This document shows positions 8,068 to 55,116 of a stretch of DNA of 64,000 nucleotides, one piece after another (position 1 is the stretch's first letter; every line of letters begins with the position of its first letter). The notes beneath the pieces were generated by a model. It made no database searches, was not told the DNA's origin, and saw nothing but the letters and a program-made list of their open reading frames with translations. Position numbers and translations under genes: made by a program. The DNA is from Prochlorococcus sp. HOT208_60m_813O14 (lineage in GTDB: Bacteria; Cyanobacteriota; Cyanobacteriia; PCC-6307; Cyanobiaceae): positions 1 to 64,000 of the forward strand of contig MWOO01000142.1 in the NCBI GenBank assembly GCA_002025945.1, read 5' to 3'.

Positions 8068-8081
8068 TGTGGAATGTTCAA
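8068..8081 (-). repeat. 14-mer TTGAACATTCCACA, copy 1 (csoS1 leader)
   Basis: The exact sequence TTGAACATTCCACA lies on the minus strand 19 bases ahead of the csoS1 start codon, so it would be in the mRNA leader. The same 14 bases recur at 8299-8312 and at 55103-55116, and I found no other exact copy in the window. The core GAA/TTC arms make an imperfect dyad. It could bind a protein on DNA or act in RNA. Confidence 0.7.
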
Positions 8082-8169
8082 TTCGAAGAATGCTTCATTA
8101 AGTACTTATAAGTCAAGCGTTTTCGACAAAATCTCCATTAATGTTTTTTCTATGATTCATAAGTTAAAC

Positions 8170-8199
8170 TTATCACCCTTGGTACTATTGATATGTCAA
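8170..8199 (-). promoter_or_regulatory. Candidate csoS1 promoter
   Basis: On the minus strand a perfect -35 box TTGACA (8194-8199) is separated by 18 bases from TGATAA (8170-8175). Transcription would start near 8162, giving a csoS1 leader of roughly 110 bases. The -35 match is unusually good for this AT-rich genome, while the -10 box is only moderate. A second, weaker possibility begins with TTGACT nearer the gene. Confidence 0.4.
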
Positions 8200-8275
8200 T
8201 ACTTATAGAAATTAGTTAGTGCATCAAAACATACTGTTGTGTTAAGAAAAAATTTACATTATGTTATTTCCGTAC

Positions 8276-8325
8276 GAGACAGGCCCTGTCTATACAGGTG
8301 TGGAATGTTCAACCTTTCCTGTCTC
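8276..8325. repeat. Nested inverted repeats GAGACAGG / CCTGTCTC around a 14-mer copy
   Basis: GAGACAGG (8276-8283) is the exact reverse complement of CCTGTCTC (8318-8325). Between them lie CCTGTCT (8285-8291), ACAGG (8294-8298) and the 14-mer copy at 8299-8312. AGACAGG-C-CCTGTCT (8277-8291) is itself a perfect palindrome with a one-base centre. The two CCTGTCT copies start 33 bases apart, about three helical turns. The blocks allow mutually exclusive hairpins in RNA, or cooperative binding of a dimeric protein on DNA. Confidence 0.75.
8299..8312 (-). repeat. 14-mer TTGAACATTCCACA, copy 2
   Basis: The second exact copy lies inside the GAGACAGG/CCTGTCTC dyad, in the same orientation relative to csoS1 as copy 1. 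It is about 250 bases ahead of the csoS1 start and about 65 bases ahead of the ham1 start. The next base is also shared with the third copy near priA/sigA, extending that match to GTTGAACATTCCACA. Confidence 0.7.
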
Positions 8326-8376
8326 CGTATCAATCTTTGAAGTAAGATAATATTCACAGTAAATTTATTTGTTATT

Positions 8377-8961
8377 TTGAACCTTCCAGTTCTAACCATT
8401 GCTAGTGGCAATCAAAGAAAAGTATCTGAAATTTCAGAGATGCTGGATGTTTTGTCTTTAAAGGTTCAGAAGCAACCAGAATATTTAAATGTCGAAGAGA
8501 CTGGAAACACATATTTTGAGAATGCACTTCTAAAAGCAAAAGCAGCTGCTTTAGAGACTAAAACTTGGGCATTAGCTGATGACTCGGGTCTTGAAGTAGA
8601 TGTTTTAGATGGTCGGCCAGGAATTTATTCTGCTCGATATGCCAAAACTAATGATGAGAAAATTAAAAAATTAATTAATGAACTTTCTGATAGTCCTTAT
8701 AGGAGTGCAAGATTTATAAGTTGTATGGTTTTGTGCGATCCCTCAGGAAACTTAGTTAAAGATACAACAGGAATATGCTGGGGAGAAATTCTTAAGAACC
8801 CCAAATATCCAAACGGGGAATTCGAATCTATTTTTTGGGTAAAAGAGTCTAACTGTGTTTACGGTGAGCTCTCACAATCACAACTAAATAAATTAGGTAG
8901 TAGAGGTAAAGCTGCAAAAATTATGTCACCTTTTTTAAAAAAAGAGATAGGTTTAAGTTAA
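8377..8961 (+). CDS. rdgB: Non-canonical purine NTP pyrophosphatase (RdgB/HAM1)
   Basis: A 194-residue cytosolic house-cleaning enzyme that hydrolyses dITP, ITP and XTP to monophosphates, keeping deaminated purines out of DNA and RNA. Motifs are the N-terminal TIASGNQRKVSEI (triphosphate binding), ENALLKAKAAA, and ADDSGLEVDVLDGRPGIYSARYA with the catalytic Asp pair. The C-terminal part is a little divergent but keeps LSQSQLNKLGSRGKA. The only plausible start is a TTG at 8377, which puts LTIASGN at the usual distance from the N terminus. It diverges from csoS1 and converges on csoS1D. Linkage of ham1 to the cso operon is a known arrangement in marine cyanobacteria. Confidence 0.92.
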   Translation: MNLPVLTIASGNQRKVSEISEMLDVLSLKVQKQPEYLNVEETGNTYFENALLKAKAAALETKTWALADDSGLEVDVLDGRPGIYSARYAKTNDEKIKKLINELSDSPYRSARFISCMVLCDPSGNLVKDTTGICWGEILKNPKYPNGEFESIFWVKESNCVYGELSQSQLNKLGSRGKAAKIMSPFLKKEIGLS

Positions 8962-8985
8962 AAAAAAGTTTAAATTAAAAAATTC

Positions 8986-9756
8986 TCAATAATTTGAAAT
9001 TTCTTCAATTGCTCTAATAGCAGCAGCTGCTGCTTCTTCTACATCTCCTTCTTTCCCGGCGAGAGTTAATCTACCAAAAGCTCCAACTGCCTTAACATCA
9101 ACAACCGTTATATTAGATGCCTTTTCAGCTTCATTTGCTGCTTTTAAAACATAACCAGCTGGTTCAGTTTCTAATATAAACATGCTCATTCCAGATTGAA
9201 TCATTGATCCACTTCTGTTTTGTCTATTTATTAAAACAGCATGATCTGGAGTAATAGCTCGAATAACTTCTGTCCAACTTGTTGAAGGTTTGGTTCTTTT
9301 TCTAACTTCACTTCCTATAGCATCTAGAACAACATCCCCAGAATGTAAAACAGTACTTTGATCTTTGTGATAAAGAGCAAGAGAGCCAAATGCTCTCTCA
9401 ACAATCATCTGACCAAGTCTTACATTACTTGCTTTTAAGGCAATATCAGTGACTCTATGCACGGCCATCCCAGGTGAAACTTCCATCCAAAGGCATGAAT
9501 CTCCCGGTATAGGTAAAAAACCTCTACTAACCGTCCCCATATATGCAGCTAATTGAGGTTGAAGAGAATCCAAAAAAACATATGTTCTCAACTCAATTTG
9601 CTCAACTTGACTTGCTTGTCTGGACACCAAAGACTTTTCTGAATCAGTTGTAATAAAACAGCTTGCACCACTGGCCTGAGATTGCACCTCAGATCCTGTT
9701 ACAAGAGAACTGCCTTTTTTTCGTTCCCCTCTGTTTAAACTAGAAGTTGGTTCCAT
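8986..9756 (-). CDS. csoS1D: Carboxysome shell protein CsoS1D (tandem BMC domain)
   Basis: A 256-residue shell protein with two fused BMC domains, about residues 55-150 and 155-253, after a 50-residue polar N-terminal extension. The Prochlorococcus CsoS1D forms trimers that stack in pairs and have a large gated pore, thought to admit bulky metabolites such as RuBP. Recognisable stretches are [34 protein letters not shown] and [17 protein letters not shown]. It starts with ATG. It lies outside the main cso operon, separated by ham1 on the opposite strand, so its expression is independent, which fits a minor shell component. Confidence 0.95.
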
Positions 9757-9853
9757 TCACGCGACTATAACGGATTATGGTTCATTTTTTCTATTAAATT
9801 TACTTGCATGCTTCCCACAAAACGATAACTTCAAGTAAAAGATATGCATTTTT

Positions 9854-10222
9854 ATGGGCACTTCTCAAAAAAAAGAACCGAATGTTTCTGGTACTGAAAA
9901 AGAATTAACTCCTGATCAAACTCTTGGATTAGTTAGCCTAAGCTTGATGCAAAAACTATCTCAGAAAGACCCATCTTTTAGTTGGTTAGAAGAAGATAAA
10001 ATTGAAAAGGTAAATCTTAAAAACCTTAGAGATAGATTGGAGTTAACGCAATTAGCTATAAATACTGGAGCACCTTTAACCACTTCAGAAGTCACAGCTT
10101 TAATTGGGGCAAAGCCCGGGAAATCTAAGTTAGAAAGAGCAGGATTATTAGCGACGAAAATAGCTAGAAATGTGTGGAAGATTTCAAAAACAAGTCAAGG
10201 AAATTCTTTCTACAGAAATTAA
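9854..10222 (+). CDS. Conserved hypothetical protein next to csoS1D and chlN
   Basis: A 122-residue cytosolic protein with an ATG start, diverging from csoS1D across 97 bases and 157 bases ahead of chlN on the same strand. I do not recognise a named domain. The first 20 residues are polar; residues 20-75 are mostly helical with QTLGLVSLSLMQKLSQ and LRDRLELTQLAINTG. The second half has LTTSEVTALIGAKPGKSKLERAGLLA, seen as shorter pieces TTSEVTALIG and GLLATKIARNVWKI, which resembles a small winged-helix or other DNA-binding unit. Prochlorococcus relatives carry it at the same place as far as I recall. Function is unknown. Confidence 0.75.
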   Translation: MGTSQKKEPNVSGTEKELTPDQTLGLVSLSLMQKLSQKDPSFSWLEEDKIEKVNLKNLRDRLELTQLAINTGAPLTTSEVTALIGAKPGKSKLERAGLLATKIARNVWKISKTSQGNSFYRN

Positions 10223-10370
10223 AATACGCCCAAAAAGTTTTTTTCATAATTCCCATTTAAGTATTTAAACATTCATATAAGTTTTTTAAATGTGTTCATT
10301 TTGTAAGAGAACTTATTAATTACTTTCTTAAATTGAAAAGTTTATGCAAGCTTGAAATATAAGCTCTTGA

Positions 10371-11636
<1,266 letters not shown>

Positions 11637-11641
11637 AAACT

Positions 11642-13213
11642 ATGGAATTAACTCTTTGGACGTATGAAGGACCACCACATGTTGGTGCCATGAGAATTGC
11701 CTCTTCAATGAAAGACATTCATTATGTGCTTCATGCCCCCCAAGGAGATACATATGCAGATCTTCTCTTTACAATGATCGAAAGGAGAGGGCAAAGGCCT
11801 CCAGTAACCTATACAACTTTTCAGGCCAGAGACCTTGGAGGCGATACAGCTGAATTAGTGAAGAAAAATATTAAGGAAGCGGTTGAACGCTTCAAACCCA
11901 AAACTCTTTTAGTCGGAGAAAGTTGTACAGCAGAACTTATCCAAGACCAACCTGGAGCTCTTGCGAAAGGGATGGGGTTTGATATGCCGATTGTGAATCT
12001 TGAATTACCAGCTTATAGCAAGAAAGAAAATTGGGGGGCCTCAGAAACCTTTTATCAATTAATAAGAACTCTTTTAAAAGAAAAAGTAAGCTTTTCAGAG
12101 AAAATAAGTCCTCTAAGGTGGAAGGAATTTGGGCGTAGACCAAAAGTCAATATACTTGGCCCTTCATTACTAGGATTTAGATGCAGAGATGATGTAATCG
12201 AAATCCAACGCATACTTTCAGAGCAAGGAATAGATACAAACGTAGTTGCTCCATTAGGTGCTAGTCCAGATGATATTGAAAGACTAATTGATGCTGAAAT
12301 AAATATTTGTCTTTATCCAGAAATTGCGGAAGCATCGTGCGAATGGCTTAAACGGAACTTTGGAATGCAATATACAAGCACTATTCCAATTGGCATAAAA
12401 AATACAATTGAATTTATAAATGAAGTCCATAAGAAATTAGATCTTCCTTTGACTAATAAAAAAGAATTAGAAAATAAATCTAAACTTCCTTGGTACTCAA
12501 AATCAGTTGACTCAAATTATCTAACTGGCAAAAGAGTTTTTATTTTTGGTGATGGAACACATGCAATTGCAGCAGCCAAAATTGCTAAGGAAGAATTGGG
12601 TTTTGAAGTAGTGGGTCTTGGAACATACAGCAGGGAGATGGCCAGGCAAGTAAGAGCTACTGCAAAAGATCTAAATGTAGAAGCTCTTATAACTAACAAT
12701 TATTTAGAAGTGGAAGATGCCATGAAAAAAGCCGCCCCTGAACTAGTTTTAGGGACCCAAATGGAAAGGCATAGTGCAAAAAGACTCGGCATTCCTTGCT
12801 CAGTAATTAGTACTCCAATGCATGTTCAGGATGTTCCTGCAAGATATAGCCCTCAAATGGGATGGGAAGGAGCAAATGTGATTTTTGATGACTGGGTACA
12901 TCCACTAATGATGGGCTTAGAAGAGCATCTTATTGATATGTTCAAACATGACTTTGAGTTTGTTGATGGTCATCAAAGCCATTTAGGACATACAGCGACA
13001 AACACAAAGGAATTTTTAAATTCTGACGAAAAAAAAGAAAAAAATAGTAAAGAAGGAATTATCTGGACTGAATCTGGTAGAGCTGAATTAATAAAAGTTC
13101 CATTTTTTGTAAGAGGTAAAGTTAAAACAAATACTGAAAAATACGCAATCTTGAGAGGAATTCCAGAGATAAGCGATGAAACTCTTTACGATGCCAAAGC
13201 ATATTTCAGCTAA
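11642..13213 (+). CDS. chlB: Light-independent protochlorophyllide reductase subunit B
   Basis: A 523-residue partner of ChlN in the NB catalytic component of dark protochlorophyllide reductase. Asp36 in [10 protein letters not shown] is the unusual aspartate ligand of the NB cluster, and [11 protein letters not shown] and the C-terminal [19 protein letters not shown], read as [15 protein letters not shown], are family signatures. The C terminus ends in a small DUF-type domain (about residues 470-523) linked to complex formation with ChlL. It starts with ATG five bases after chlN. The length agrees with cyanobacterial ChlB (about 508-525). Confidence 0.98.
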
Positions 13214-13403
13214 TTTTTACTAATAAACTAAATTTAAGTCATGAGTATTTTCACTCATAATTAAATAGATTTCTTGCTAAAAATTCAGTTATAAGAACAT
13301 ATTTCCCACTTTTAATACAATTAAATACATATTTGTTTAGAAACATATTTCATGTGTATTTACGCTGCAAGAATATAAATAATAATGTGTTTTTAAGCTT
13401 TAA
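13214..13403 (+). promoter_or_regulatory. chlB-chlL intergenic region with ACATATTT direct repeats
   Basis: The 190-base gap carries three direct copies of ACATATTT at 13297-13304, 13327-13334 and 13343-13350, spaced 30 and 16 bases apart. The first and last are followed by C and the middle one by G. They lie 54-107 bases ahead of the chlL start. Such short AT-rich repeats can arise by chance, but clustering just upstream of a regulated gene makes a binding role possible. No clear terminator was seen after chlB. Confidence 0.35.
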
Positions 13404-14291
<888 letters not shown>

Positions 14292-14297
14292 TATAAA

Positions 14298-15302
14298 TTA
14301 ATCTAACCCAACCAATTGGCATGTTAAATCATAAGTTTGTTTAGAAGTCTTCGTATCAATTATTCTTTTTGACAACTTTTGAGAAAAAGCTTTTCTGCCA
14401 GTTTTTTGACGATTCCCCCAGCTCCAATGGACTGATGGTTTAGCAAATTCTTTATAAGTTGCCACTTGAGCGACCCTCTCTCCTGCAAGTCTTTGTGAAA
14501 CATATCCTTTTGTTATGAATTTTTGAAATATCGGGAAAAGGAATCTAAATAACCAAGGTGTATCTCTAAAAAGTTTAGTCTCAGCAACACATCCAGGATA
14601 TAGAGAATTTACAATAATCTTCTCTGCAGGATATCTTTTTGATAATTCCTGTACGGTCACCATATTGCAAAGTTTACTATCCTTATAAGCCTTTCCAGGT
14701 TTAAATTTCTTTCCATTCGCCATACTTATTGGAGATAAAAAACCATTTTTGAATCCAGATAAATCTCCCAAATCAGCTGGGGCAGGGATGGGGATCCTTC
14801 CTCCAAGTTCTGAATAATTAGCCGTAACAGTCCCTAATACTGTAATTCTTGGCTTAAATAAAGTTGATTTGCCATTTAAAACAATTTCTCCTTCAGAAGA
14901 TAAAATATTTTCCATAAGTAGGTTTATCATAAGAAAATGCCCAAAATGATTTACTGCCATAGAGTTTTCAAACCCTTGTGCAGACCTTTCAGGTCTCTTT
15001 AGTCTCGGTTTATAAACTGCTGCATTACAAATAAGAGAATTTATTGGCTTTTTAAATCTTTCTAATATTTCATTGCAACCTTTCCTCACATCATCCAAGT
15101 TAGAAAGATCTATTTCTATAAAGTGAATATTTTCAACTTCCTCTTTTGTCAAGGATTCTTCAGCTATTTTTATAGCTCTTTTATTTGATCGATTAACTGC
15201 TATAACCTCCCATCCAAATCTTAATAGAGGTTTTAGAGTATTTAATCCAACTCCTGAAGTTGTTCCTGTTATTAGGACTAAACCCTTAATGTTTTTACTC
15301 AC
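14298..15302 (-). CDS. por: Light-dependent NADPH:protochlorophyllide oxidoreductase
   Basis: A short-chain dehydrogenase of about 334 residues that reduces protochlorophyllide when lit, the light-driven counterpart of ChlLNB encoded next door. The dinucleotide-binding motif is TGTTSGVG near residue 12. The catalytic Tyr-Lys pair is in KAYKDSKLCNM. NHFGHFLMINLL and VHWSWGNRQKTGRKAF mark the POR subfamily. No ATG is available: GTG at 15302 gives VSKNIKGLVLITG and the expected length, and TTG at 15308 is the alternative. Having both enzymes lets chlorophyll synthesis run in light, with oxygen, and in dark. Confidence 0.96.
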   Translation of the reverse strand: MSKNIKGLVLITGTTSGVGLNTLKPLLRFGWEVIAVNRSNKRAIKIAEESLTKEEVENIHFIEIDLSNLDDVRKGCNEILERFKKPINSLICNAAVYKPRLKRPERSAQGFENSMAVNHFGHFLMINLLMENILSSEGEIVLNGKSTLFKPRITVLGTVTANYSELGGRIPIPAPADLGDLSGFKNGFLSPISMANGKKFKPGKAYKDSKLCNMVTVQELSKRYPAEKIIVNSLYPGCVAETKLFRDTPWLFRFLFPIFQKFITKGYVSQRLAGERVAQVATYKEFAKPSVHWSWGNRQKTGRKAFSQKLSKRIIDTKTSKQTYDLTCQLVGLD

Positions 15303-15356
15303 TAGCAAAAAAGTTAATTTAAATATGAAAAGGATAATGATTCATGATCATCCTTA

Positions 15357-15704
15357 TCAACGCCATATTACTCTGATAATGTCCCTAGAAATTATTTGAT
15401 CCTGATCCTTCATAAATCTTTGCTCACCTTCAGAAGAGAATAAATCATCAAACTTATCTGTTAAAACATTAAATCTATATTTTTCGTATAAAAATGAGTC
15501 TTCAATTTCCCTTAATCTGATCAACCTTACTTTAGAACTATAGCCAAGTTTAATGAGGCTTATTATTGCTAAAAGGGAAAAGCTAATTTTTATAATTAAA
15601 AAAATCAATGATACAAAATTATCCTGTTTCTGTTGTCTTTTTATAAATAAAGACCCTAAATATTTTTTGTGGGAAATACTATTTTTATAAAAAGATTTTG
15701 ACAA
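15357..15704 (-). CDS. Conserved cyanobacterial single-pass membrane protein
   Basis: A 115-residue protein with a polar N terminus (1-28), one hydrophobic segment at about 29-53 (FVSLIFLIIKISFSLLAIIS), and a charged helical C-terminal part. The C-terminal half includes RLREIEDSFLYEKYRF and ends in ISRDIIRVIWR. This arrangement resembles the small bitopic FtsB/FtsL class, but sequence alone cannot assign it. The only usable start is TTG at 15704. I recall similar proteins in other cyanobacteria near por, with no established function. It sits between por and psaM on the same strand. Confidence 0.65.
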   Translation of the reverse strand: MSKSFYKNSISHKKYLGSLFIKRQQKQDNFVSLIFLIIKISFSLLAIISLIKLGYSSKVRLIRLREIEDSFLYEKYRFNVLTDKFDDLFSSEGEQRFMKDQDQIISRDIIRVIWR

Positions 15705-15788
15705 ATTAAGTACTAGATATTTTACTGAATAAATTAATTCAGTCTTACTTTATTATTACCTTATAAATTTACAATTTTCTAATGGACT

Positions 15789-15893
15789 TTAGTTCCTACC
15801 TAAACTAATTCCTAGTCTTAATGCTAAAACTCCTGCATGCATAACAACTATGAGGCTTAATGCAATAAGATTTATTGTTTGAGTTGGCTCCAT
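15789..15893 (-). CDS. psaM: Photosystem I reaction centre subunit XII (PsaM)
   Basis: A 34-residue single-span thylakoid protein of photosystem I, located near the trimerisation domain, where it helps stabilise the complex. Translation of the minus strand from ATG at 15893 begins [13 protein letters not shown], followed by [19 protein letters not shown] and TAA at 15789. That matches PsaM in length, the hydrophobic core and the basic C terminus. Such a short gene is easily missed. No Shine-Dalgarno sequence is visible. It lies in a region otherwise rich in chlorophyll-synthesis genes and may share a transcript with the downstream membrane-protein gene. Confidence 0.93.
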
Positions 15894-15994
15894 GGTGAAA
15901 AAATTATTTTCTATATTCTCCACCGAAAAGAGAAGATTTGAAACACTATTACAAAATGATGTTACGTAATTAACAAATTGAAAGAAAAAATTTA

Positions 15995-16722
15995 TTGAAA
16001 ATTATCATTAATAAACCTACAAAGTTAATTTTGGGAATTGAAAATCAGGCTTTAATTTTTTCAACAAATAATTTACCTGGATTTGATCAAATGGCTTTAG
16101 ATTTAAATTCTTTAGATCAGACAATTTCGAATCCTGAAATAATTCTCACATTGAGGTTCTACTATTGGACTGGGGATTGGCTTTCAATTGGCTATCACCA
16201 AAAGGAAATTCCTCTTCATTGGAAAAATTTATTGTCAAATGGTGAAATTAATATTGTTAGCGTCCTTCTGGAGGGGGGGCTGTTCTGCATTCAGGAGGCA
16301 TAACATATGCATTAACATTTAAGAAAACTTACTATAAAGTCTTAAGTTATGAAATGGTTAATAATTGGTTAATTGAAAGTTTTAGAGAATTAGGTCTAAA
16401 CTTACAATATGGTAATTTACGAAAATCAAGAATTAAAACAAATTGTTTTGGGACTTCATTAATTTCCGATTTAGTCGATCAGGATGGGTTTAAGAGAATA
16501 GGTAGTGCTCAATTTCGTAAAAAAGGTGCATTCCTTCAACATGGAGAAATTCAAACAAATCCTTCAAGAGATTTGTGGTTCAAACTATTCAAAGAAGAAG
16601 CTCCACCAAAAGTAAACTTAAAACTAACCAATGATGAAATAGTTCAACATTTGAGAAATTCATTCCTGAAAAATAAACCAAATATAAATTTCAAAAATAT
16701 TGCCATAGATAATAAAAAATAG
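15995..16722 (+). pseudogene. Lipoate-protein ligase A family gene interrupted by a 1-base deletion
   Basis: Two overlapping frames together encode one biotin/lipoate A/B ligase family protein of about 242 residues. Frame 15995-16303 gives the N-terminal part up to ...GEINIV; the continuation RPSGGGAVLHSGGITYAL is in another frame from 16261 to the stop at 16720-16722. The expected motif VRRPSGGGAVLH is recovered by adding one base after AG at 16259-16260, so a single base is missing there. The upstream frame has TAG at 16258, which fixes the shift precisely. The nearby G7 run is not the site. It could be a real inactivating mutation or a sequencing error. The upstream start would be TTG. Confidence 0.85.
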
Positions 16723-16744
16723 AAAATTTTAATGACAAGAATTA

Positions 16745-26282: not shown

Positions 26283-27065
26283 ATTCCATACAAAGAAATA
26301 TATTTCTCAAAAACTGAAATTTTTATTCAAAACAAAAAATTTGAATATTATTCATCACCTATCCTTAGTCAAAATAATTTCAAACATGCATATTTTACAA
26401 AATCAAGCTCTGAGAAATTTCTTCAATTATTAGGGAATCATTTTAATGAAAATCACATAAATTGTGTTTCCAATCAAATTCACAGTAATGTGATAGTTTT
26501 TGGATCACATGCGGGAGATGGTATTAAGACTGATGCAGATGGCCTTGTTGGTAATAAATGCAATCAAAACTTATGGATTTACACAGCTGATTGTATGCCA
26601 ATATTTTTTGCAGATAAAAGAACAAGAAATGTAGCAACCTTGCATTGTGGAAGGAAGGGCTTAGAAAAAAAAATAATAAAAAATCTGGTTAAAATTTTCG
26701 ATAATTTAGGAACATCTAGAGATAACTTACTTGTTGCAATAGGACCAGCGATTTCCAAGGAACATTATCTAGTTGATAAAAAGACACTCAAAGAATTTTA
26801 TAGAAAAGCCGATAAAAAAAACATAATGGTAAATTTGACTCAAACTGAAAAAGATCTTTGTTTAAGTGATTCAAATCACTTCAAAGAAAAAAACTTAAAT
26901 CAACTTGATCTTAAAAGATCTGCTTATAGACAACTTTTAAATGAGAACATTCCCAATACAAATATAGACATCTCAAATTTATGTACATACAAATTAAAAA
27001 ATGAATTTAATTCCTGGAGAAGGAGCAAAACATTCTCGAGACAATGGAATTTTATTTGCTCATAG
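26283..27065 (+). CDS. PgeF/YfiH family protein (polyphenol oxidase/purine nucleoside phosphorylase-like), no standard start codon
   Basis: A protein of the YfiH/PgeF (laccase-domain) family, members of which act as peptidoglycan editing or purine nucleoside phosphorylase-like enzymes with a zinc site. Visible features are NQIHSNV, LWIYTADCMPIFFAD (Cys), and ATLHCGRKGLEKK (the His-Cys/Ala-Gly region), plus AIGPAIS. Conserved N-terminal sequence such as FKHAYFTK, matching the HGFSTR position of relatives, extends far upstream of the first GTG at 26490. The frame is open from the TAA at 26250 and contains no ATG, GTG or TTG before 26490. AGGAG at 26270-26274 sits eight bases before an ATT at 26283, which would give a normal 260 residues. 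Confidence 0.72.
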   Translation: MPYKEIYFSKTEIFIQNKKFEYYSSPILSQNNFKHAYFTKSSSEKFLQLLGNHFNENHINCVSNQIHSNVIVFGSHAGDGIKTDADGLVGNKCNQNLWIYTADCMPIFFADKRTRNVATLHCGRKGLEKKIIKNLVKIFDNLGTSRDNLLVAIGPAISKEHYLVDKKTLKEFYRKADKKNIMVNLTQTEKDLCLSDSNHFKEKNLNQLDLKRSAYRQLLNENIPNTNIDISNLCTYKLKNEFNSWRRSKTFSRQWNFICS

Positions 27066-45567: not shown

Positions 45568-45592
45568 GGCTTATTTTTTTGGGAGCAAATTT

Positions 45593-46030: not shown

Positions 46031-46057
46031 TACAATTCATTTACTTTTTAAAAGTAA

Positions 46058-47422
<1,365 letters not shown>

Positions 47423-47437
47423 TTTAGTTCCAAATTA

Positions 47438-48439
47438 ATGAAGGAATCCTTTAGACATTTTGAACATAAAAAAGTTGATCTCATTGGTCTGGGAAACGCA
47501 ATAGTAGATATTATTGTAAATATTGAAGATGAGTTTCTTGAGATAAATAATCTGGATAAAGGATCAATGAATCTAGTTAATTCTGATGAATCTCAGAGAT
47601 TGTTAGAAAATTGCAAAGTGATCAAACAAATTTCAGGTGGGTCCTCAGCAAATACTGTTGTTTCTTTAGCAGAATTAGGCAATAATGTGCAGTTTATAGG
47701 AAGAGTGAAAAATGATCAATTTGGGGATTTTTTTTCTGACGATATAAAAAAAAGTAAAACAATATTTAATACTCCACCAACTATTGAAGGTGCTCCAACA
47801 GCTCATTCAATCATTTTGGTTACACCTGATGCACAAAGAACTATGTGCACTTACCTAGGAGCATCTGTAGAGTTTGAACCAAAAGACATTGACTTTACTG
47901 TTATTAAGGAAAGTAAATACTTATATTTAGAAGGATATTTATGGGACAGCGAATTAGCTAAAAAAGCTTTTATTAAAGCCTCCCAAATTGCAAACCAATC
48001 TAATACAAAAATAATTCTTTCTTTGTCTGATTCATTTTGTGTAGACAGACATCGTGAGAGTTTCTTGGAATTAATATATGAATATGTAGATATTGTTTTT
48101 TGTAATGAATCCGAGGTGTTAAGTCTTTTAAAAAATGATAAATTATCAAGCTGCCAAGAAGAAATATCTTCCCTATGTGAATTAGTCATAGTAACTCTTG
48201 GAAGCAATGGTTCTCTCATTGTTAACAAAAATAATCTTGAAATAATTGAGTCAATAACGAAAGGCAAGATTATTGATACTACAGGAGCGGGAGATATCTA
48301 TGCGGGAGGATTTATCCATGGATTAATCAATAATTATTCCCTAAAAAAATGCGGAGAGATAGCTTCAATATGTGCGGGACAAATAATTACGCAATTAGGA
48401 TCTAGATCAGATATTGATCTTAAAGAGTTAATAAAATAA
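47438..48439 (+). CDS. PfkB-family sugar/nucleoside kinase
   Basis: A 333-residue ribokinase-family kinase. The first signature is SGGSSANTVVSLAELGNNVQFIGRV, given in parts GGSSANTVVSLAELG and VQFIGRV, near residue 68. The second is DTTGAGDIYAGGFIHGLI near residue 278, with the catalytic Asp in GAGD. Members phosphorylate adenosine, ribose, fructose or other sugars; its position directly after purA (15 bases) suggests adenosine kinase or another nucleoside kinase in purine salvage, which is inference. It starts with ATG. It converges with cutA six bases away. Confidence 0.88.
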   Translation: MKESFRHFEHKKVDLIGLGNAIVDIIVNIEDEFLEINNLDKGSMNLVNSDESQRLLENCKVIKQISGGSSANTVVSLAELGNNVQFIGRVKNDQFGDFFSDDIKKSKTIFNTPPTIEGAPTAHSIILVTPDAQRTMCTYLGASVEFEPKDIDFTVIKESKYLYLEGYLWDSELAKKAFIKASQIANQSNTKIILSLSDSFCVDRHRESFLELIYEYVDIVFCNESEVLSLLKNDKLSSCQEEISSLCELVIVTLGSNGSLIVNKNNLEIIESITKGKIIDTTGAGDIYAGGFIHGLINNYSLKKCGEIASICAGQIITQLGSRSDIDLKELIK

Positions 48440-48445
48440 ATTTAA

Positions 48446-48751
48446 TCAAATAGTCTTATTCAACCAATCATAATATTTCATCTCAGCATGGTATTTTTTG
48501 TAAATAATTTGAGGGACATCATATGTGGAATTTTTATTTAAGAATTCAATTAAATAATCTTTAAATTCTAATTTACTTTTTATTGTGATTTCGAACTCTT
48601 TAGTTTCTTCAATATCTTCATTCCACTTATAAATTGAAAAAATTTGCTTTATCGAAACACAAGCTGCAAGTTTATTTTGTATTAGTAATTTAGCCATTCG
48701 CAAAGCATTTGCGTTACTTGATTCAGTTGTGATCATAACTAATACTTCCAT
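48446..48751 (-). CDS. cutA: Divalent-cation tolerance protein CutA
   Basis: A 101-residue trimeric ferredoxin-fold protein named for copper tolerance; its exact role is still unsettled. Motifs are MITTESSNANALRMAKLLIQNKLAACVSI in pieces NALRMAKLLIQ and KLAACVSI, SIYKWNEDIEETKEFEI, and the C-terminal YDVPQIIYKKYHAEMKYYDWL seen as VPQIIYK and YDWL. It starts with ATG at 48751. It is 13 bases after cobK on the same strand. Normal length. Confidence 0.95.
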   Translation of the reverse strand: MEVLVMITTESSNANALRMAKLLIQNKLAACVSIKQIFSIYKWNEDIEETKEFEITIKSKLEFKDYLIEFLNKNSTYDVPQIIYKKYHAEMKYYDWLNKTI

Positions 48752-48764
48752 AATGAATTAAACA

Positions 48765-49562
48765 TCAATATTTTTTAATTATGTGATTTATCAAATTATG
48801 ATATTGATCAAAAGAGTAAGAAAAATCATTTTTGAATTTTGGCCTTTTAACCAAAAATAGCTTCATTTTACTTCCAGAAACTATAGTCTCCCAGTTTTTC
48901 TGAGAATAACTTCCAGATTCTCTGCATAAAACATAATCTATCTTCCAAAAATCACAAAGTTTTTTTTCTAGAATGCTTCTATTATTTTTACTCGGTTCAA
49001 GTATCGCTATGTTTGAATTTTGAATACATGATCCAAAAGCTTTAGTTATACTCTCATAAGTTGGAAGCACCCTTGTAAATACATTTGCTTTACAATTCAT
49101 ATAATAATTAGCTGTATCGTTAAGGAATCTTGATCCTATTGCAAGAAGAATATTCTTATTCTCAATATCAACGTTATTTATATCCTTTAAATCATCAATA
49201 TAAAAAAAATTATTAGTGTTATTTATGAGAGATTTCCTCTCAAATAGTAAAAGAGGTGTATTAATCTCTTTACATGCATTATTAAGATTTTTAGAAATTA
49301 TTACCGCAAACGGATGAGTAGCATCAACAACGCATGTGATTTTATTTTTATTTATGAAATTAATTATTTGATCTTTATTATTTAATTTACCCGTAATGAT
49401 ATGTAACTTTGGATTCTCAATATAAGCTTGCCCTGCTTTATAAGTTAAAACACTTGCAAAGACTGAATAATTTAGTTCAAGAAGCCTATTAGCTATTACA
49501 GGTCCATCCGAAGTTCCTGATAGGATCCAAACATTTTTATAGCAATTTCCTTGATTCTGCAT
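48765..49562 (-). CDS. cobK: Precorrin-6A reductase
   Basis: A 265-residue NADPH-dependent enzyme of cobalamin ring synthesis (CobK/CbiJ). The N terminus VWILSGTSDGPVIANRLL is the family's nucleotide-binding start, with CVVDATHPFAVIISKN near residue 95 the most conserved stretch and LLLFERKS after it. YVLCRESGSYSQKNWETI is near the C terminus. It starts with ATG at 49562. It diverges from ssb across 28 bases. Prochlorococcus makes pseudocobalamin, so the pathway is expected to be complete elsewhere in the genome. Confidence 0.9.
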   Translation of the reverse strand: MQNQGNCYKNVWILSGTSDGPVIANRLLELNYSVFASVLTYKAGQAYIENPKLHIITGKLNNKDQIINFINKNKITCVVDATHPFAVIISKNLNNACKEINTPLLLFERKSLINNTNNFFYIDDLKDINNVDIENKNILLAIGSRFLNDTANYYMNCKANVFTRVLPTYESITKAFGSCIQNSNIAILEPSKNNRSILEKKLCDFWKIDYVLCRESGSYSQKNWETIVSGSKMKLFLVKRPKFKNDFSYSFDQYHNLINHIIKKY

Positions 49563-49590
49563 CAGTATGTCTTTAATTAAATAGTAAGTA

Positions 49591-50016
49591 ATGAATCATT
49601 GTTTAATTCAGGCGGTCATTAATAGCGCTCCCCAAATGAGGTATACCAAAGAAAACCAAACTCCAATTGCAGAAATGATTGTTAATTTTAAAGGATTACG
49701 TAGTGAAGATCCAACCAGAGATCTCAAGATCATAGGATGGGGAAATATTGCCCAAGAAATGGTAGATGAACTAAAGGAGGGGCAAAATATTGTTATTGAG
49801 GGACGTCTCAAGATGAATTCTGTCACTAGAAAAGACGGTACGAAAGAGAAGCAACCAGAACTAACAGCTTCAAAGATTCATCAAATATCGCCAGTTGATG
49901 TTATTAAGTCTGATCAAAAAGAAAATAGTGAGTCATTTGAAAAAAAAGAAAGCACCAAAAATTCAAGTTGGGACAGTTCACCTTTAGTACCTGAAGTTGA
50001 CGAAATACCCTTTTAA
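49591..50016 (+). CDS. ssb: Single-stranded DNA-binding protein
   Basis: A 141-residue SSB with an N-terminal OB-fold (1-105) and a short acidic tail ending VDEIPF, the tip through which SSB recruits partners such as PriA (encoded at 52803). LIQAVINSAPQMRYT and IAEMIVNFKG, then VIEGRLKMNSVTRKDGTKEK, are read as the OB core. It is a little unusual in lacking the common N-terminal MN-x-V-x-LIGRL wording. It starts with ATG. It diverges from cobK and converges on a 60-residue gene. Confidence 0.92.
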   Translation: MNHCLIQAVINSAPQMRYTKENQTPIAEMIVNFKGLRSEDPTRDLKIIGWGNIAQEMVDELKEGQNIVIEGRLKMNSVTRKDGTKEKQPELTASKIHQISPVDVIKSDQKENSESFEKKESTKNSSWDSSPLVPEVDEIPF

Positions 50017-50017
50017 A

Positions 50018-50200
50018 TCAAATATCAACATTATTTTCTTGAACACTTATAATTAACTTGCTTATTTTTCTTTCAAGTGCGGCAAGTTCGCTTCTAATTT
50101 CTGGCCATTTACCCTTATCAAGATTTTCTAATAGCCATGCTCTATCTTGATCAAGTTTAAAAATTAAATCTCCTTGATTTGCAGTATTAGGATCTTGCAT
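50018..50200 (-). CDS. Small conserved hypothetical, coiled-coil
   Basis: A 60-residue, mostly helical protein starting with ATG, MQDPNTANQGDLIFKLDQ. The rest, RAWLLENLDKGKWPEIRSEL and then LAALERKISKLIIS, suggests a short coiled coil. I recall similar small proteins in other cyanobacteria, with no known function. It fills the space between ssb and the DUF2854 gene on the opposite strand, one base after the ssb stop. Codon use looks like that of a real gene, and no alternative gene occupies the gap. Confidence 0.6.
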   Translation of the reverse strand: MQDPNTANQGDLIFKLDQDRAWLLENLDKGKWPEIRSELAALERKISKLIISVQENNVDI

Positions 50201-50242
50201 AATACTTGTTAGACAATTTAAAACTCATTGTACTAAATCAAA

Positions 50243-50773
50243 ATGAAGAAATACCTATCGCCCGGAAACTTAATCGTAACCGCTGGGGGTATATTAGCTT
50301 TTGTAGGAATGACTGCTTATTTTACAGACTCCGTAAATTTAAGTGTACCTACTTTTTTTTATGGAGTACCTATTTTTTTAATTGGATTAGGTTTAAAGAC
50401 TTCCGAAATACCTCCTGTAGAGTTGTTTGACAAGACAAATTTTGCGACAAATAAATTTAATAGACCAAAAGAATTAACAGCACTAGTTAAAGATGTTACA
50501 AGATGGAGATATGGGATAAAAGCTCATCTTGAATCGTCATTAGAATCTCTAAATTTGTGGGACGAGGATAATCCCCCTCAACTAAAAGAAATCGAAGAAA
50601 TTACAAAGGAAGAAAAAAATGGTCTAAGAATGCGTTTCGAATTAAACGCTGTCCCTCTAGAAAAATGGATTGAAAAACAAGAAAGATTAAACAGATTTTT
50701 CGTCAAAGGTCTTGAATCAGAATTTATTATCGACGATAATAAAAAAGAATTTGATTTTATTCTCTTTTATTGA
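50243..50773 (+). CDS. DUF2854 family membrane protein
   Basis: A 176-residue protein of the DUF2854 family, found in cyanobacteria and chloroplasts. Two hydrophobic segments near the N terminus (about 8-30 and 33-52) form a hairpin, with the soluble remainder including TRWRYGIKAHLESSLESL and PLEKWIEKQERLNRFF. It is expected in the thylakoid or plasma membrane. No function has been established to my knowledge; plant relatives are in the thylakoid. It starts with ATG at 50243. It precedes argB by 64 bases, on the same strand. Confidence 0.85.
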   Translation: MKKYLSPGNLIVTAGGILAFVGMTAYFTDSVNLSVPTFFYGVPIFLIGLGLKTSEIPPVELFDKTNFATNKFNRPKELTALVKDVTRWRYGIKAHLESSLESLNLWDEDNPPQLKEIEEITKEEKNGLRMRFELNAVPLEKWIEKQERLNRFFVKGLESEFIIDDNKKEFDFILFY

Positions 50774-50837
50774 ATATAGGGATATATTTGTAAAAACCTA
50801 ATTTCTCAATTCAATCAAGTTTTAATGAATTTTAATA

Positions 50838-51689
50838 ATGAATGATTCTCAAAGAGTATCAATATTAAGCGAAGCACTTCCATATATACAAAGTTTCTCA
50901 GGTAGAAAAATTGTTATCAAGTATGGTGGTTCTGTTATGGAGAATAATAATTTAAAAAATGCTTTTTTTAGAGACATTGCACTTTTATCAACCGTTGGGG
51001 TTTGTCCGATAGTAATTCATGGAGGTGGACCAGAGATTAATAATTGGTTAAAGAAATTAGAAATATCTCCTAAATTCGAAAATGGATTAAGAATTACTGA
51101 TCAAAAAACAATGGAAATTGTCGAGATGGTTCTAATGGGTAGAGTTAACAAACAAATTGTAAAAGGGATTAATAAAACTGGATCCTTAGCTGTGGGAATA
51201 TCAGGTCTGGATGGCAACTTAATTCAATCTAGAGAACTAGGAGATGGTAGCCATGGGTTAGTGGGAGAGGTTACAAAAATCAATCCTGAAATATTAGATC
51301 CTCTTATTTCTAAAGGATACATCCCAATTATTTCTAGCATTGGATCAACCTTGGAGGGTATTTCCCATAACATTAATGCAGATTTTGTTGCTGGAGAAAT
51401 TGCTGCTGCAATAAATGCAGAAAAACTTATTCTTCTTACTGATACTCAAGGGATTTTAAAAGAAAAAGATAACAAAAATAGTCTTGTTGAAAAAACTAAT
51501 CTCAAAGAGGCAAGAGATTTTATTGATAAAAAAATTGTGAATGAAGGTATGATTCCAAAGACAGAATGCTGTATAAGAGCTTTAGCCCAAGGAGTCAAAG
51601 CAGCTCACATAATTGATGGCAGAATAGAACATTCATTACTTCTTGAGATTTTTACAAATTCCGGAATAGGTACAATGATAGTCGCTTAA
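50838..51689 (+). CDS. argB: Acetylglutamate kinase
   Basis: A 283-residue amino-acid kinase that phosphorylates N-acetylglutamate in arginine synthesis; in cyanobacteria it is the target of PII (GlnB) activation. Signatures are [48 protein letters not shown] in pieces [12 protein letters not shown] and LLTD. The C-terminal [25 protein letters not shown] holds the arginine-binding region. It starts with ATG. A DUF3153 gene follows three bases after the stop, so they are co-transcribed. Confidence 0.98.
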
Positions 51690-51692
51690 CAC

Positions 51693-52802
51693 ATGAAAAC
51701 TTATGAGCAAGTTTTAGAAAAAGTAGAACTTGCTTTAGCTAAAGGTGAGTATCATTATTGCATTGAATTTCTTTTGCCCATAATCGAATCATTTCCTTTA
51801 TCAAGCAAGGAGGGAGTAAATTTAAGAACAATCTTAATTACTGCTCTATGTGGTATCAATAAAAGGAACGAGGCTAAAAGGTTTTGTAAAGAACTTCTAA
51901 AATCTTACGATACTAAGACTAGAGAAAATGCTAAATATTTGATGGAAGTTATAGACTCTCCTGACATTAAAAAGCCAGAAAATTGGAACGTACAGTTTGA
52001 AAGCGACCCATCACTCAATAAAAAATCTCTTAACTCACTGCGCAAAAAAAGAGAAGTATTGAAGAAAAAAAAATTTATTAATGTAACTGAGAAACCAACT
52101 GGTGAAACAAAACCCTTTCAGAAAGGCTTTTCACTGGTCATTTTTCTAATACTATTATTATTGATTCCTCTTTTAAGTGGCTGCGTTAAAGTTGAGGATA
52201 CTCTTGATATTAGTGAAATTGATTCAATAACCAATAATTTAGTCATAGAAAGTAAATACATTAAGAAATTTCCTTGGCAATTAAAATTTGAAGACAAGAT
52301 GAAAGATATTTTTCCTGAAGCAGAAATTGTACAAGACGAATCAAGCTTTTCATTGAAACATAAAAATCTCAATCTAGAAGATACAAAACAAGTGCTTAAA
52401 ATTACACAAAATACCGCTGGAGAGTTAGCTGGAGGATCAACAAATATAGAAATTAATACTACTCAAAAAAACTTCATTTTTTTTAAAAAATACTTTTACA
52501 GGTTGGATTTAGATCTAAATTCTATTCAAGGTGTTGATAATTTAGAACTCATTTTCAAAATTATTCACCCTAATAAAGCTATCCTTACTGATACAGATAA
52601 TTCAAATTTAGAAATCAAAAAAAATCTAATAATTTGGAATTTAAATCAAGGGAAGATAAATAGTCTTGAATTTGCTTTCTGGAGCCTCAACAAACTTTTG
52701 ATTGGGATATCTACTATCTTAATAATTACAATAATTGCTTATTTATTAAGATTCTATAGATTTAAATTAGGTACAGATTTGCCTCAACTTCCATCAAAGT
52801 AA
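51693..52802 (+). CDS. TPR-like plus DUF3153 membrane protein
   Basis: A 369-residue protein in two parts. Residues 1-100 look like helical TPR-type repeats with LALAKGEYHYCIEFLLP and TALCGINKRNEAKRFCKELL. A basic linker (110-148) is followed by a membrane span (149-166) and a lipobox-like LLSGCVKVED. Residues 170-320 match the cyanobacterial DUF3153 extracytoplasmic domain, and a second membrane helix closes the chain (about 338-355). It starts with ATG three bases after argB. The TPR-like part is unusual in front of DUF3153. Function is unknown. Confidence 0.75.
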   Translation: MKTYEQVLEKVELALAKGEYHYCIEFLLPIIESFPLSSKEGVNLRTILITALCGINKRNEAKRFCKELLKSYDTKTRENAKYLMEVIDSPDIKKPENWNVQFESDPSLNKKSLNSLRKKREVLKKKKFINVTEKPTGETKPFQKGFSLVIFLILLLLIPLLSGCVKVEDTLDISEIDSITNNLVIESKYIKKFPWQLKFEDKMKDIFPEAEIVQDESSFSLKHKNLNLEDTKQVLKITQNTAGELAGGSTNIEINTTQKNFIFFKKYFYRLDLDLNSIQGVDNLELIFKIIHPNKAILTDTDNSNLEIKKNLIIWNLNQGKINSLEFAFWSLNKLLIGISTILIITIIAYLLRFYRFKLGTDLPQLPSK

Positions 52803-55079
52803 TTACAACTCAGCTGGATTAACATCAATTGTTAAAAAAACATTTTTTGGAATAAATTTCCATAATATTGATCTATCAGGTAAAGGGATCTTTGTTCCTT
52901 CAGGTCCATGCATTAATATCTGCCATCTAAATTTTTTACCAACTTTAGCAATTAAACTAGGAGCAGGACCAATTAATTTCCAGTTCTTTTTCTCACAAAA
53001 TGTGAGTAGATATTTTGCTAATTTTATTGCAATTGATTCAGTTAATTCATAATTTTCACCTGATAATTTAAGAAGGCAAATCGTGCAAAATGGAAATAAA
53101 TTTGCATCTTTTCTCAATCTCGAGTTTTCAATTAAGAATCTTTCATAATCTCTTTTCTGAAGATACGAAATTACCGGGTGATTAGGTTTATATGTTTGAA
53201 AAATTACTTTTCCTTTTTTTTGAGCCCTTCCTGCCCTGCCAGCTAATTGCAAAAATAATTGTAATGATTTTTCTTCTGCCGAAATATCTGGGCGATGAAG
53301 CAACCCATCTGCTGCGATAACTACTGAAAGAGTAATATTGGGGATGTCAATTCCTTTTGCCAACATTTGAGTTCCCACAAGAATATCAGCACCCCCTTTA
53401 GAAAACTCTGAAAGAATATCTCTGTGGCCATCCTTTCCTAAGGTTGTATCTCTATCAAAGCGAAGTACTCTTAAGTCAGGGAATTCTTCATTTAAAAACT
53501 CTATTACCCTTTGTGTACCAATTCCAAAAGGTTTAAAGGCAGTTGAATGACAATCTGGGCAACGATTGATCAATCTCGATTTATGATCACACCAATGACA
53601 ATTTAACCATTTTTTTCCTTGTGCACCGAGATGAACTGATAAAGGAACATCACAGTTGGGGCAATTTATTAAATATCCGCAATTTCTGCAACTTAAAAAC
53701 CCACTATGCCCCCTTCTAGGAATCAAAATTATTGCTTGCTCATTTTTTAAGCGAAGTTGAGGAAGCAATAGTAATAATTCATTGGAAAAAATTTTCATAT
53801 TTCCTTGCTTGAACTCATCCCGCATATCAATAATTCTTATTTCAGGAATCTCATTTCTGGATATCCTTTCAATCATCCTTACCAATTTGAAATTATTTTC
53901 AAAACTACACTTTTTCCAAGTCTTCATTGATGGGGTTGCACTCCCAAAAATTAACTTTGCAGAATTCCTTTTTACTATTTCAATAGCAATCTCTCTTGCG
54001 TCATAACAAGGCATAGGACTATCTTGTTTATAAGAAACATCATGTTCTTCATCCATTATTATTACTCCTAGATTTTTCATTGGAAGAAAAACTGCGGACC
54101 TTGTTCCTATTACTATTAAGGGTTCATTAGCATTAATAATTTTCTTCCAAACTAAAGTTCTATGATTCGGAGAACAGTTACTATGATATTCGTAAACAAC
54201 ATTATTAAATCGCTGACTAAACCTATCAATAAGTTGAGGAATTAGTCCAATTTCTGGGGCTAGTATCAAACAACTTTTTTTCTTAAGAAATTGATCTTCA
54301 GCAATTCTCATGTAAACTTCTGTTTTACCTGAACCTGTTTCGCCCCAAAGAAGTAATGCATCTCCTTGTTTCATTTTTTGAAATTCTTGAAATGCAATTT
54401 TTTGCTCATTTGTAAGATTTGGTTTTTTCGTCGCGATATGATCTTTTATAAAGGAATTTAATTTACTATTTATATTTTTTTTTCTTTTAGATCTAGAAAG
54501 ATAATTTTTGCTGACCATTGAGTTAATTAGAGTGGAATTAAAACCAGACTTTATTAATTCACTTTGCCAATTACCTTTTTTAGATAAAGTATCTATTAAA
54601 AAAGATTCTTTTTTGGTTAATCCATTTTTCTTAATATCAAATTCTTTTTTAGTTTCAATCCATATTTGATCTTTTAAACCTTTAGAGAAATTTTTATATT
54701 TACCAATCCAGCCAGGAGGAAATGCAGTTTTAAACATTTTTAAATTACTAACCATATAAAAAGAGGCTAGGGATTCTATCAATTCTCTCCAAGATTCATC
54801 AATTATTTTTTTCTGCAAAATACTTTCAACAAACAAATATCTTATGTTTTTTCCTCCAGTAATATTTGATTCATCATTATTGATTGTCGAAAAGTCTTTT
54901 TTGGAGATCACCAACCCGTTCAATAATCTCCCCCTTAGTCTGACACTTACAATATCTCCAACTTCTACTCCAAGATTATTTCCATCTAAATAGTAAAAGC
55001 TTTCATTACTACTACCTATATCAAGCAAAATTTCCAATTTATAGGAGATATTTAATAACTGATTACTTGCCGGCTTCAA
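52803..55079 (-). CDS. priA: Primosomal replication protein N' (PriA helicase)
   Basis: A 758-residue superfamily 2 helicase that restarts stalled replication forks. The N-terminal 3'-binding and winged-helix domains run to about 230; the helicase core follows with LLWGETGSGKTEVYMRI (Walker A), IIMDEEHDVSYKQD and IFGSATPSMKTWKK. A zinc-binding module lies at about 465-520: CRNCGYLINCPNCDVPL and CHWCDHKSRLINRCPDC. AGRAGRAQKKGKVIFQTY is helicase motif VI. No ATG precedes the first conserved segment; TTG at 55079 is the best start, without a clear ribosome site. It converges on the DUF3153 gene and diverges from sigA. Confidence 0.96.
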   Translation of the reverse strand: MKPASNQLLNISYKLEILLDIGSSNESFYYLDGNNLGVEVGDIVSVRLRGRLLNGLVISKKDFSTINNDESNITGGKNIRYLFVESILQKKIIDESWRELIESLASFYMVSNLKMFKTAFPPGWIGKYKNFSKGLKDQIWIETKKEFDIKKNGLTKKESFLIDTLSKKGNWQSELIKSGFNSTLINSMVSKNYLSRSKRKKNINSKLNSFIKDHIATKKPNLTNEQKIAFQEFQKMKQGDALLLWGETGSGKTEVYMRIAEDQFLKKKSCLILAPEIGLIPQLIDRFSQRFNNVVYEYHSNCSPNHRTLVWKKIINANEPLIVIGTRSAVFLPMKNLGVIIMDEEHDVSYKQDSPMPCYDAREIAIEIVKRNSAKLIFGSATPSMKTWKKCSFENNFKLVRMIERISRNEIPEIRIIDMRDEFKQGNMKIFSNELLLLLPQLRLKNEQAIILIPRRGHSGFLSCRNCGYLINCPNCDVPLSVHLGAQGKKWLNCHWCDHKSRLINRCPDCHSTAFKPFGIGTQRVIEFLNEEFPDLRVLRFDRDTTLGKDGHRDILSEFSKGGADILVGTQMLAKGIDIPNITLSVVIAADGLLHRPDISAEEKSLQLFLQLAGRAGRAQKKGKVIFQTYKPNHPVISYLQKRDYERFLIENSRLRKDANLFPFCTICLLKLSGENYELTESIAIKLAKYLLTFCEKKNWKLIGPAPSLIAKVGKKFRWQILMHGPEGTKIPLPDRSILWKFIPKNVFLTIDVNPAEL

Positions 55080-55102
55080 AACTTTTTCTTAGTATTGGAT
55101 TG

Positions 55103-55116
55103 TTGAACATTCCACA
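55103..55116 (+). repeat. 14-mer TTGAACATTCCACA, copy 3 (sigA side)
   Basis: The exact sequence appears here on the plus strand, oriented towards sigA, and 24 bases ahead of the priA start on the other strand. The preceding base is G, as in copy 2. It is about 285 bases upstream of the sigA start codon. Taken with copies 1 and 2, all three sit only in these two control regions. Confidence 0.7.

Follow-up and report, generated by a model that had tools for sequence, protein, structure and literature searches.

The closest described systems to the one considered here are the Prochlorococcus RNAs Yfr1, Yfr2 and Yfr10, in which a short conserved motif pairs with messenger RNAs (mRNAs) (PMC6778093, PMC2518516). 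In the open-licence text of the former paper, Yfr10 is reported to bind the csoS1 and csoS2 mRNAs (PMC6778093), and the CGRE1 motif of the PMM1637 (GntR) regulon is confined in MED4 to yfr2 promoters (PMC6778093). Table 1 of the latter names no RNA at ham1/csoS1 (PMC2518516). Here we analyse a 64,000-nucleotide stretch of Prochlorococcus sp. HOT208_60m_813O14 (contig MWOO01000142.1, positions 1 to 64,000; hereafter the window), in which a 14-mer, TTGAACATTCCACA, occurs near the carboxysome gene csoS1, before ham1 and before the sigma-factor gene sigA. We estimate the probability at about two in three that the three copies are one antisense RNA loop and its targets, the ham1 leader pairing with the 5′ ends of the csoS1 and sigA mRNAs. 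Such an RNA would differ from those in the available Yfr1, Yfr2 and Yfr10 texts in sequence and locus: it would be an mRNA 5′ end lying beside its target, and its site would be the target's predicted +1.

Yfr28 is alike in lying beside and opposite ftsQ and ftsZ, where it overlaps the ftsZ 5′ untranslated region, and in having further predicted targets in trans. As far as its open-licence text goes, it is a 72-nucleotide RNA of high-light strains that is complementary by overlap (PMC7368042), whereas here the complement is a loop, separated from the target by at least about 230 nucleotides (nt), and occurs widely in the family. A 2005 screen for cyanobacterial RNAs lists as candidate 87 a 'Region upstream of the rbcLS cluster containing conserved promoter', with two sequences (Z -4.24 and -3.64), flagged without testing in the screen (PMC1242208). 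Candidate 87 is probably the ham1/csoS1 region analysed here, read there as a promoter; the accessible text names no RNA, strand, loop or target. Another RNA, RblR of the beta-cyanobacterium Synechocystis 6803, is said to overlap rbcL. It resembles the RNA proposed here in acting on Rubisco expression in a cyanobacterium and differs in that the source, by its title, presents an antisense RNA (PMC5306279).

In the searchable open-licence literature, taken without supplements, we found no description of antisense control of csoS1 or sigA by a ham1 leader and nothing closer than these systems, and no Rfam family names such control. Prochlorococcus and marine Synechococcus, which account for a large share of ocean carbon fixation, have few protein regulators. 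Over the day, rbcL transcript levels in MED4 vary 36.8-fold and those of the protein 1.3-fold, and the accessible text of that study itself points to regulatory RNAs (PMC3430701). If the reading given above is true, an antisense RNA directed at the initial nucleotides of the carboxysome-Rubisco mRNA would offer a concrete, testable handle on the control of this operon, and the sigA site would show a new target recruited to an old RNA.

The 14-mer and its core

The exact copies of TTGAACATTCCACA, at 8068-8081 (-), 8299-8312 (-) and 55103-55116 (+), are the only ones in the window, as the original prediction, made from the letters of this stretch, had claimed; they are also the only ones in the source draft genome (1,353,740 bases, 248 contigs, 76% complete). 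All three fall outside open reading frames (ORFs) of at least 100 amino acids, in agreement with the claim that they are intergenic. Matches with up to three mismatches number 11 in the window, which is what shuffling yields (mean 11.3); it is the exact copies alone that are unusual. A scan of the genus, which the prediction had proposed as a check, found at least one copy in 185 of 200 genomes, including all 66 that are at least 90% complete, and none of the 200 holds the reversed pattern used as a control.

Across the family, 72 of 400 genomes and 4 of 59 genera contain the 14-mer. The copies outside the genus lie again at the csoS1 locus in G240 and G499 (loci L054 and L055) and inside an ORF in G437 (L056); a further match in G405 was not read in context. 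In the genus a shorter core, GAACATTCC, takes the form of the 14-mer; the core is kept in much of the family and has, as a bare nine-letter string, one additional copy in the window, at 26945, within a gene.

The sole one-mismatch copy of the 14-mer in the draft genome (G000:C133:18604-18617) is antisense to the end of an ABC-exporter-like gene. Copies in antisense orientation to the final codons (WNVQVG) of an ABC exporter recur in several genomes of the genus; they are coding and probably coincidental. The first bases of the TTG-started ham1, TTGAACCTTCCAGT at 8377-8390 (+), equal the 14-mer with three mismatches, which is within chance. In viral sequences the bare 14-mer matched at least 120 stretches, and a 201-base stretch of a relative (L228) had no match in 50,697 phage records.

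A covarying structure, probably on the ham1 strand

The middle copy lies within a covarying stem-loop. In an alignment of 17 sequences from other genera, chosen for the exact core (A2), two-sided changes affect nine of 20 pairs, against 2.7 in shuffles, and six of the nine are in an outer stem, P1. The inner hairpin has two-sided change in three of its six pairs, and 76% of its cells pair. A covariance model built from A2 (R1) matched once in every one of 64 selected loci, and from the resulting alignment (A4) RNAalifold, unaided, predicted the eight-pair P1. All eight pairs have rows changed on both sides, and the arms take 31 distinct forms, such as GAGACAGG/CCTGTCTC, GCAACACG/CGTGTTGC and CCGAATGG/CCATTCGG. 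Thus the conserved, covarying secondary structure expected of a base-pairing regulatory RNA is present in the outer stem, and the inner parts are weak in this respect. The loop core, GGAAUGUUC, is exact in 62 of the 64 rows, the exceptions being L355 and L360, which have GAACAGTCC. Rfam 15 gave no match at the gathering score in the window and none up to E 1 in eight loci; between 8180 and 8420 it returned three unrelated sub-threshold matches only (E 2.9-9.6).

Two features point to the strand. The P1 cells, 506 in all, comprise 465 Watson-Crick pairs, 27 A.C, 5 G.U and 9 others when read on the csoS1 strand; an A.C there becomes a G.U on the opposite strand and vice versa, so that standard pairs number 492 on the ham1 strand and 470 on the csoS1 strand. 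Counted per distinct arm pair, the ham1 strand has 13 G.U and 3 A.C, and the bias towards this strand has P = 0.0001 by cells and 0.02 by arm pairs, uncorrected for kinship. Promoter-like sequences are also conserved there: 52 of the 55 rows outside the genus carry TANNNT at -14 to -12 relative to P1 (shuffles: mean 4.3, maximum 12), with TTG at a spacing of 16-18 in 35 of these 52 (shuffles: mean 0.27, maximum 2), and all nine rows from the genus have TTG, a 17-nt spacing and TATGTT or TAAGTT at -16 from P1. The csoS1 strand shows no such promoter peak ahead of P1, with at most four of 43 rows and none of 12 large-genome rows.

Because of the wobble pairs and these promoter-like sequences, the RNA is predicted to run towards ham1, most likely starting at the foot of P1 and continuing into the gene. 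On the same grounds we dropped our first reading, a riboswitch or leader on the strand of csoS1 and sbtA, the latter a gene that stands between the structure and csoS1 in some relatives. The original prediction had all copies pointing towards csoS1 or sigA; this holds for those at 8068 and 55103 but not for that at 8299, whose RNA would be on the opposite strand. Its suggestion that ham1 is involved survives.

Candidate target sites at csoS1 and sigA

The csoS1 gene, which we take to be PMM0549 in MED4, was found in 29 of 30 searched genomes of other genera. In most other-genus genomes GAACATTCC stands upstream of csoS1 at about -30, and in many it is repeated near -265. Among 82 distinct csoS1 upstream regions, preselected for the core with up to three mismatches, the core is exact in 76, TTGAC lies exactly -37 from it in 78, and the -10 has C, A and T at -13, -12 and -8 in 94-96%. 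The distance from the core to the start codon varies between 26 and 33 nt. The constant spacing to TTGAC, with a variable distance to the start codon, ties the site to the promoter, and the G of the site is predicted to be the first transcribed base. In the leaders of several species (e.g. L243, L246, L248, L250, L352-L354), CTCCTCCAGGAG directly precedes the csoS1 start codon; a hairpin formed by it could mask the ribosome site. A UGUUC-N5-GAACA dyad spanning the csoS1 start and a possible RNase E site were also considered as candidate features.

The arrangement at sigA resembles that at csoS1: TAGTAT is followed by GTTGAACATTCCACA, the G of which is 7 nt past the -10. In 12 distinct contexts from the genus, picked via the exact site and leaving out a thirteenth on a viral contig, TAGTAT is present in all and TTGCCG in 11; genome G015 has the site with one mismatch. 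The site is about 285 nt upstream of the sigA start codon. No copy of GAACATTCCACC with fewer than two mismatches was found at the sigA locus in 25 loci of other genera, and the putative target has been seen only in the Prochlorococcus genus. For priA, which the original prediction had considered as a possible further member, we found only that the predicted sigA promoter overlaps the 5′ end of its ORF.

The CCTGTCT/AGACAGG blocks that had been noted in both regions are indeed there, at 8277, 8285, 8318 and 55202, with another at 5634, within a gene. The sigA leader contains GCCTGTCT, replaced in some relatives by GCCAGTCT; its complementarity to P1 may provide a second contact with the ham1-leader RNA, or may be chance. 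The same leader has a hairpin (GATCATT ... AATGATC) at 55171-55199 (+), which is recognisable in most printed sigA loci of the genus, with a variable loop.

Complementarity between the loop and the sites

On the ham1 strand the loop GGAAUGUUC is the complement of the predicted csoS1 5′ end from +1 to +9, and in the window the complementarity extends over 14 nt with csoS1 and 15 nt with sigA (from 55102). Over the 64 rows of A4 the mean unpaired probability of GGAAUGUUC is 0.67, compared with 0.35 for the entire RNA. An accessible loop complementary to a conserved mRNA site, as a base-pairing regulatory RNA would have, is therefore present, with a mismatch in three relatives. The longest complement to a genome's own csoS1 5′ end averaged 12.6 nt, against 11.4 nt with permuted partners (0/2000; kinship not removed). 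As the predicted RNA heads away from csoS1, it would not be a cis-overlapping antisense RNA.

Duplex energies with the RNA, its own fold being ignored, are -30.7 for csoS1 and -27.3 for sigA. Of 6342 control stretches of the window, three pair better than the csoS1 site and 16 better than the sigA site, and for this reason energy alone is no proof. Outside the genus, six exact matches to GAACATTCCMYC lie away from the csoS1 locus, in six genomes, all within ORFs.

Distribution in the family and linked loss

The structure was found with R1 in 89 of 151 family genomes (44 of 59 genera). In 292 genomes of the phylum, all 29 stronger matches (E 1e-5 or better) belong to the family, and nine further matches at E 0.001-0.009 look like noise. 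The csoS1 promoter with the core occurs in 106 of 151 family genomes (48 of 59 genera), among them G218, where the match looks like chance. Both searches covered 151 family genomes obtained by the same request, which we took to be the same set.

Structure and site tend to be lost together. TTGAC-N31-33-GAACATTCC is present in 88 of 89 genomes with the structure and in 18 of 62 without it, genomes being counted as independent; for genomes at least 90% complete the counts are 52 of 52 and 16 of 42. The sole structure-bearing exception, G294, has a completeness of 85%. Structure and promoter share a contig and are no more than 3 kb apart in 87 of the 89 (66 less than 300 nt apart, 21 at 1.5-2.5 kb), the other two being G294 and G216. 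In 29 genomes read closely, promoter and core are found in 20 of 20 with the structure and two of nine without it (G207 and G227 keep the site). If G216 is moved to the genomes without the structure, the counts become 87 of 88 and 19 of 63 overall, and 19 of 19 and three of 10 among those read closely.

With filters off, a diverged structure appeared in three of 18 site-only genomes (L438, L439, L444), and in G227 (L425) the csoS1 site is kept and the structure decayed. For G261, G310 and G329 the upstream DNA examined ends at contig ends. In G222, 57 nt separate the first in-frame ham1 ATG from sbtA, and in G230, where the ham1 start is uncertain, this gap is also short; the short gaps mean that the element has been lost, and in both genomes the core at csoS1 has decayed. 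Within one genus (g30), G295 has structure and site and G228 neither.

Proposed mechanism and alternative explanations

The complementarity, stem covariation, promoter geometry and linked loss observed in these sequences could be explained as follows, although transcription, its start sites and pairing in the cell are what we infer from them. A promoter at 8237-8265 (+) would give rise to an RNA that begins close to 8272, heads for ham1 and forms the 5′ leader of that gene. Over its initial ~55 nt this RNA would fold so that P1 closes the inner hairpin and a loop region containing GGAAUGUUC (in the window, UGUGGAAUGUUCAA). The loop would pair with GAACAUUCC at +1 of the csoS1 mRNA, which encodes the carboxysome and Rubisco, and, in this genus only, with 15 nt at the 5′ end of the sigA mRNA. 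Given the distances of the two sites from their start codons (~285 nt at sigA, 26-33 nt at csoS1), occlusion of the ribosome site cannot serve both targets; a single mechanism for both would have to act at the mRNA 5′ end. Pairing would thus most likely alter the fate of this end, by protection from or exposure to RNase E or by 5′-end processing, and the levels of the carboxysome and sigma-factor mRNAs would be tied to the promoter that makes ham1. A more tentative extension, to which we give somewhat less than even odds, is that the leader of ham1, a housekeeping gene for cleaning the nucleotide pool, is dual-purpose and controls the carboxysome operon across much of the family by pairing at the promoter-locked mRNA start. 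In this genus the sigA mRNA would have gained the same 5′ end and joined the circuit, and one RNA switch would be common to carbon fixation and transcription capacity.

Several observations weigh against the ham1-leader pairing. No two-sided change is found within the core, which leaves the pairing without compensatory evidence, and three relatives from three genera (L355, L360 and L438) combine the loop GAACAGTCC with GAACATTCC at csoS1, an uncompensated mismatch. In the window's own best fold the loop is partly paired, with an unpaired probability of 0.60 and the first GG largely base-paired. Two-sided change is absent from the loop-closing stem in the 17 rows of A2, and RNAalifold on 64 rows predicts neither this stem nor the inner hairpin. 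Fold energy is nearly strand-neutral (-19.99 on the ham1 strand, -19.03 on the csoS1 strand; the ham1 strand has the lower value in 33 of 64). The start sites are all predicted; simple promoter scans listed none of the three promoters (ham1-sense, csoS1 and sigA), and the csoS1 -10, CATTCT, is weak. No terminator-like site is present at 8040-8400 of the window, so a free small RNA is unsupported and we speak of a ham1 leader. About 14 genomes keep the csoS1 site with no detected structure, the structure in G216 is a weak match (E 3e-4) on another contig and away from csoS1, and the linked-loss tables and the permutation ignore kinship.

Two side observations concern the relatives just named and those that have a degraded core. 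The same mid-loop change, GAACAGTCC, is tolerated repeatedly, in L355, L360 and L438. The degraded-core relatives G222, G223, G228, G230, G233 and G235 show no compensatory change, and no structure either.

The original prediction had suggested a common regulator or a shared RNA element that links carbon fixation with the principal sigma factor. The link and the RNA element are retained here, but a DNA-binding regulator is not the best reading. A regulator for which GAACATTCC is the operator, at +1 of csoS1 and sigA and at a third upstream site, would fit the fixed position of the site over the predicted csoS1 +1 and the strong conservation of the 14-mer in the genus, and linked loss of the two sites in the csoS1 region would follow from it equally. 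It has no need, however, of a third site set in a covarying stem-loop with a promoter-like sequence of its own, and the core is no clear palindrome. Exact 12-letter forms, the only ones scanned genome-wide (bare nine-letter core and degenerate forms were not), gave no further intergenic site in 24 genomes from outside the genus, one match in G204 being unread. We consider such a regulator unlikely and set a common transcription factor aside, since the middle one of the three copies belongs to a stem-loop that covaries and probably lies on the opposite strand.

That the structure is a leader acting in cis on ham1, for example by sensing a ligand, with the csoS1 copy an unrelated promoter-start motif, agrees with the promoter and strand and with a near-invariant loop in a covarying frame, which resembles a leader element; this would leave unaccounted for the loop complement at the predicted csoS1 +1 in 76 of 82 regions, the linked loss and the sigA site, and seems to us quite improbable. 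Slightly less probable still is a leader on the csoS1/sbtA strand whose two sense copies are read by the same RNA-binding protein or RNA: the copies are on the same strand, the stem folds there too (mean -19.03) and it lies upstream of sbtA or csoS1 in 20 of 20 loci, but A.C mismatches outnumber G.U pairs on that strand by 27 to 5 and no promoter peak precedes the stem. Chance, or a recent functionless duplication, would suit the restriction of the exact 14-mer to 4 of 59 genera; set against its presence in 185 of 200 genomes of the genus with none in the control, and against the promoter and core, which 106 of the 151 family genomes (48 of 59 genera) carry (at least one, G218, seemingly by coincidence), it is hardly credible.

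Features of the window and arrangement of the locus in relatives

Table 1 Coordinates of the genes, predicted promoters, RNA elements and candidate target sites in the window.
Feature	Position	Strand	Basis or remark
rbcL, after csoS1	6253-7668		
csoS1, alpha-carboxysome shell protein	7738-8049	-	NF053791, NF003252 above cutoff
Candidate target site, predicted +1 of csoS1 mRNA (G8079 = +1)	8068-8081	-	
Predicted -10 of csoS1, CATTCT	8087-8092	-	
Predicted -35 of csoS1, TTGACT	8111-8116	-	
Predicted -35 of ham1-sense RNA, TTGTGT	8237-8242	+	
Predicted -10 of ham1-sense RNA, TATGTT; predicted start near G8272	8260-8265	+	
Predicted ham1 5′ leader carrying the structured antisense element	8272-8376	+	Promoter position
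P1 stem 5′ arm (GAGACAGG)	8276-8283	+	Covariation
Inner hairpin CCTGT-CTAT-ACAGG	8285-8298	+	Single-sequence folds; other genera with different hairpin sequence
Putative antisense loop, RNA UGUGGAAUGUUCAA, complement of the 14-mer	8299-8312	+	
P1 stem 3′ arm (CCTGTCTC)	8318-8325	+	Covariation
ham1 (RdgB/HAM1 nucleoside triphosphate pyrophosphatase), TTG start	8377-8961	+	TIGR00042 above cutoff, PF01725
Predicted sigA promoter, TTGCCG - 17 nt - TAGTAT	55067-55095	+	Overlaps priA ORF 5′ end
Candidate target site, predicted 5′ end of sigA mRNA	55103-55116	+	
GCCTGTCT, complementary to P1 5′ arm	55201-55208	+	Sequence; in sigA leader
sigA / rpoD	55401-56582	+	NF005643 above cutoff

The spacing between structure and csoS1 differs among relatives. 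In nine of the 20 loci fetched (genomes of 1.8-2.7 Mb) no gene pair separates the two, and in the other 11 (genomes of 2.4-4.0 Mb) two genes lie between them. In L352 and L359 one of them encodes an Sbt_1 bicarbonate transporter (E 3e-119 and 7e-120), the other a protein resembling P-II, which fits sbtA and sbtB; the remaining nine were judged by the look of the sequence. Where these sbtA/sbtB-like genes intervene, the csoS1 site remains at csoS1. One contig, G200:C17, carries two csoS1 loci with the structure in opposite directions (L223 and L251), a doubling that is possibly an assembly artefact.

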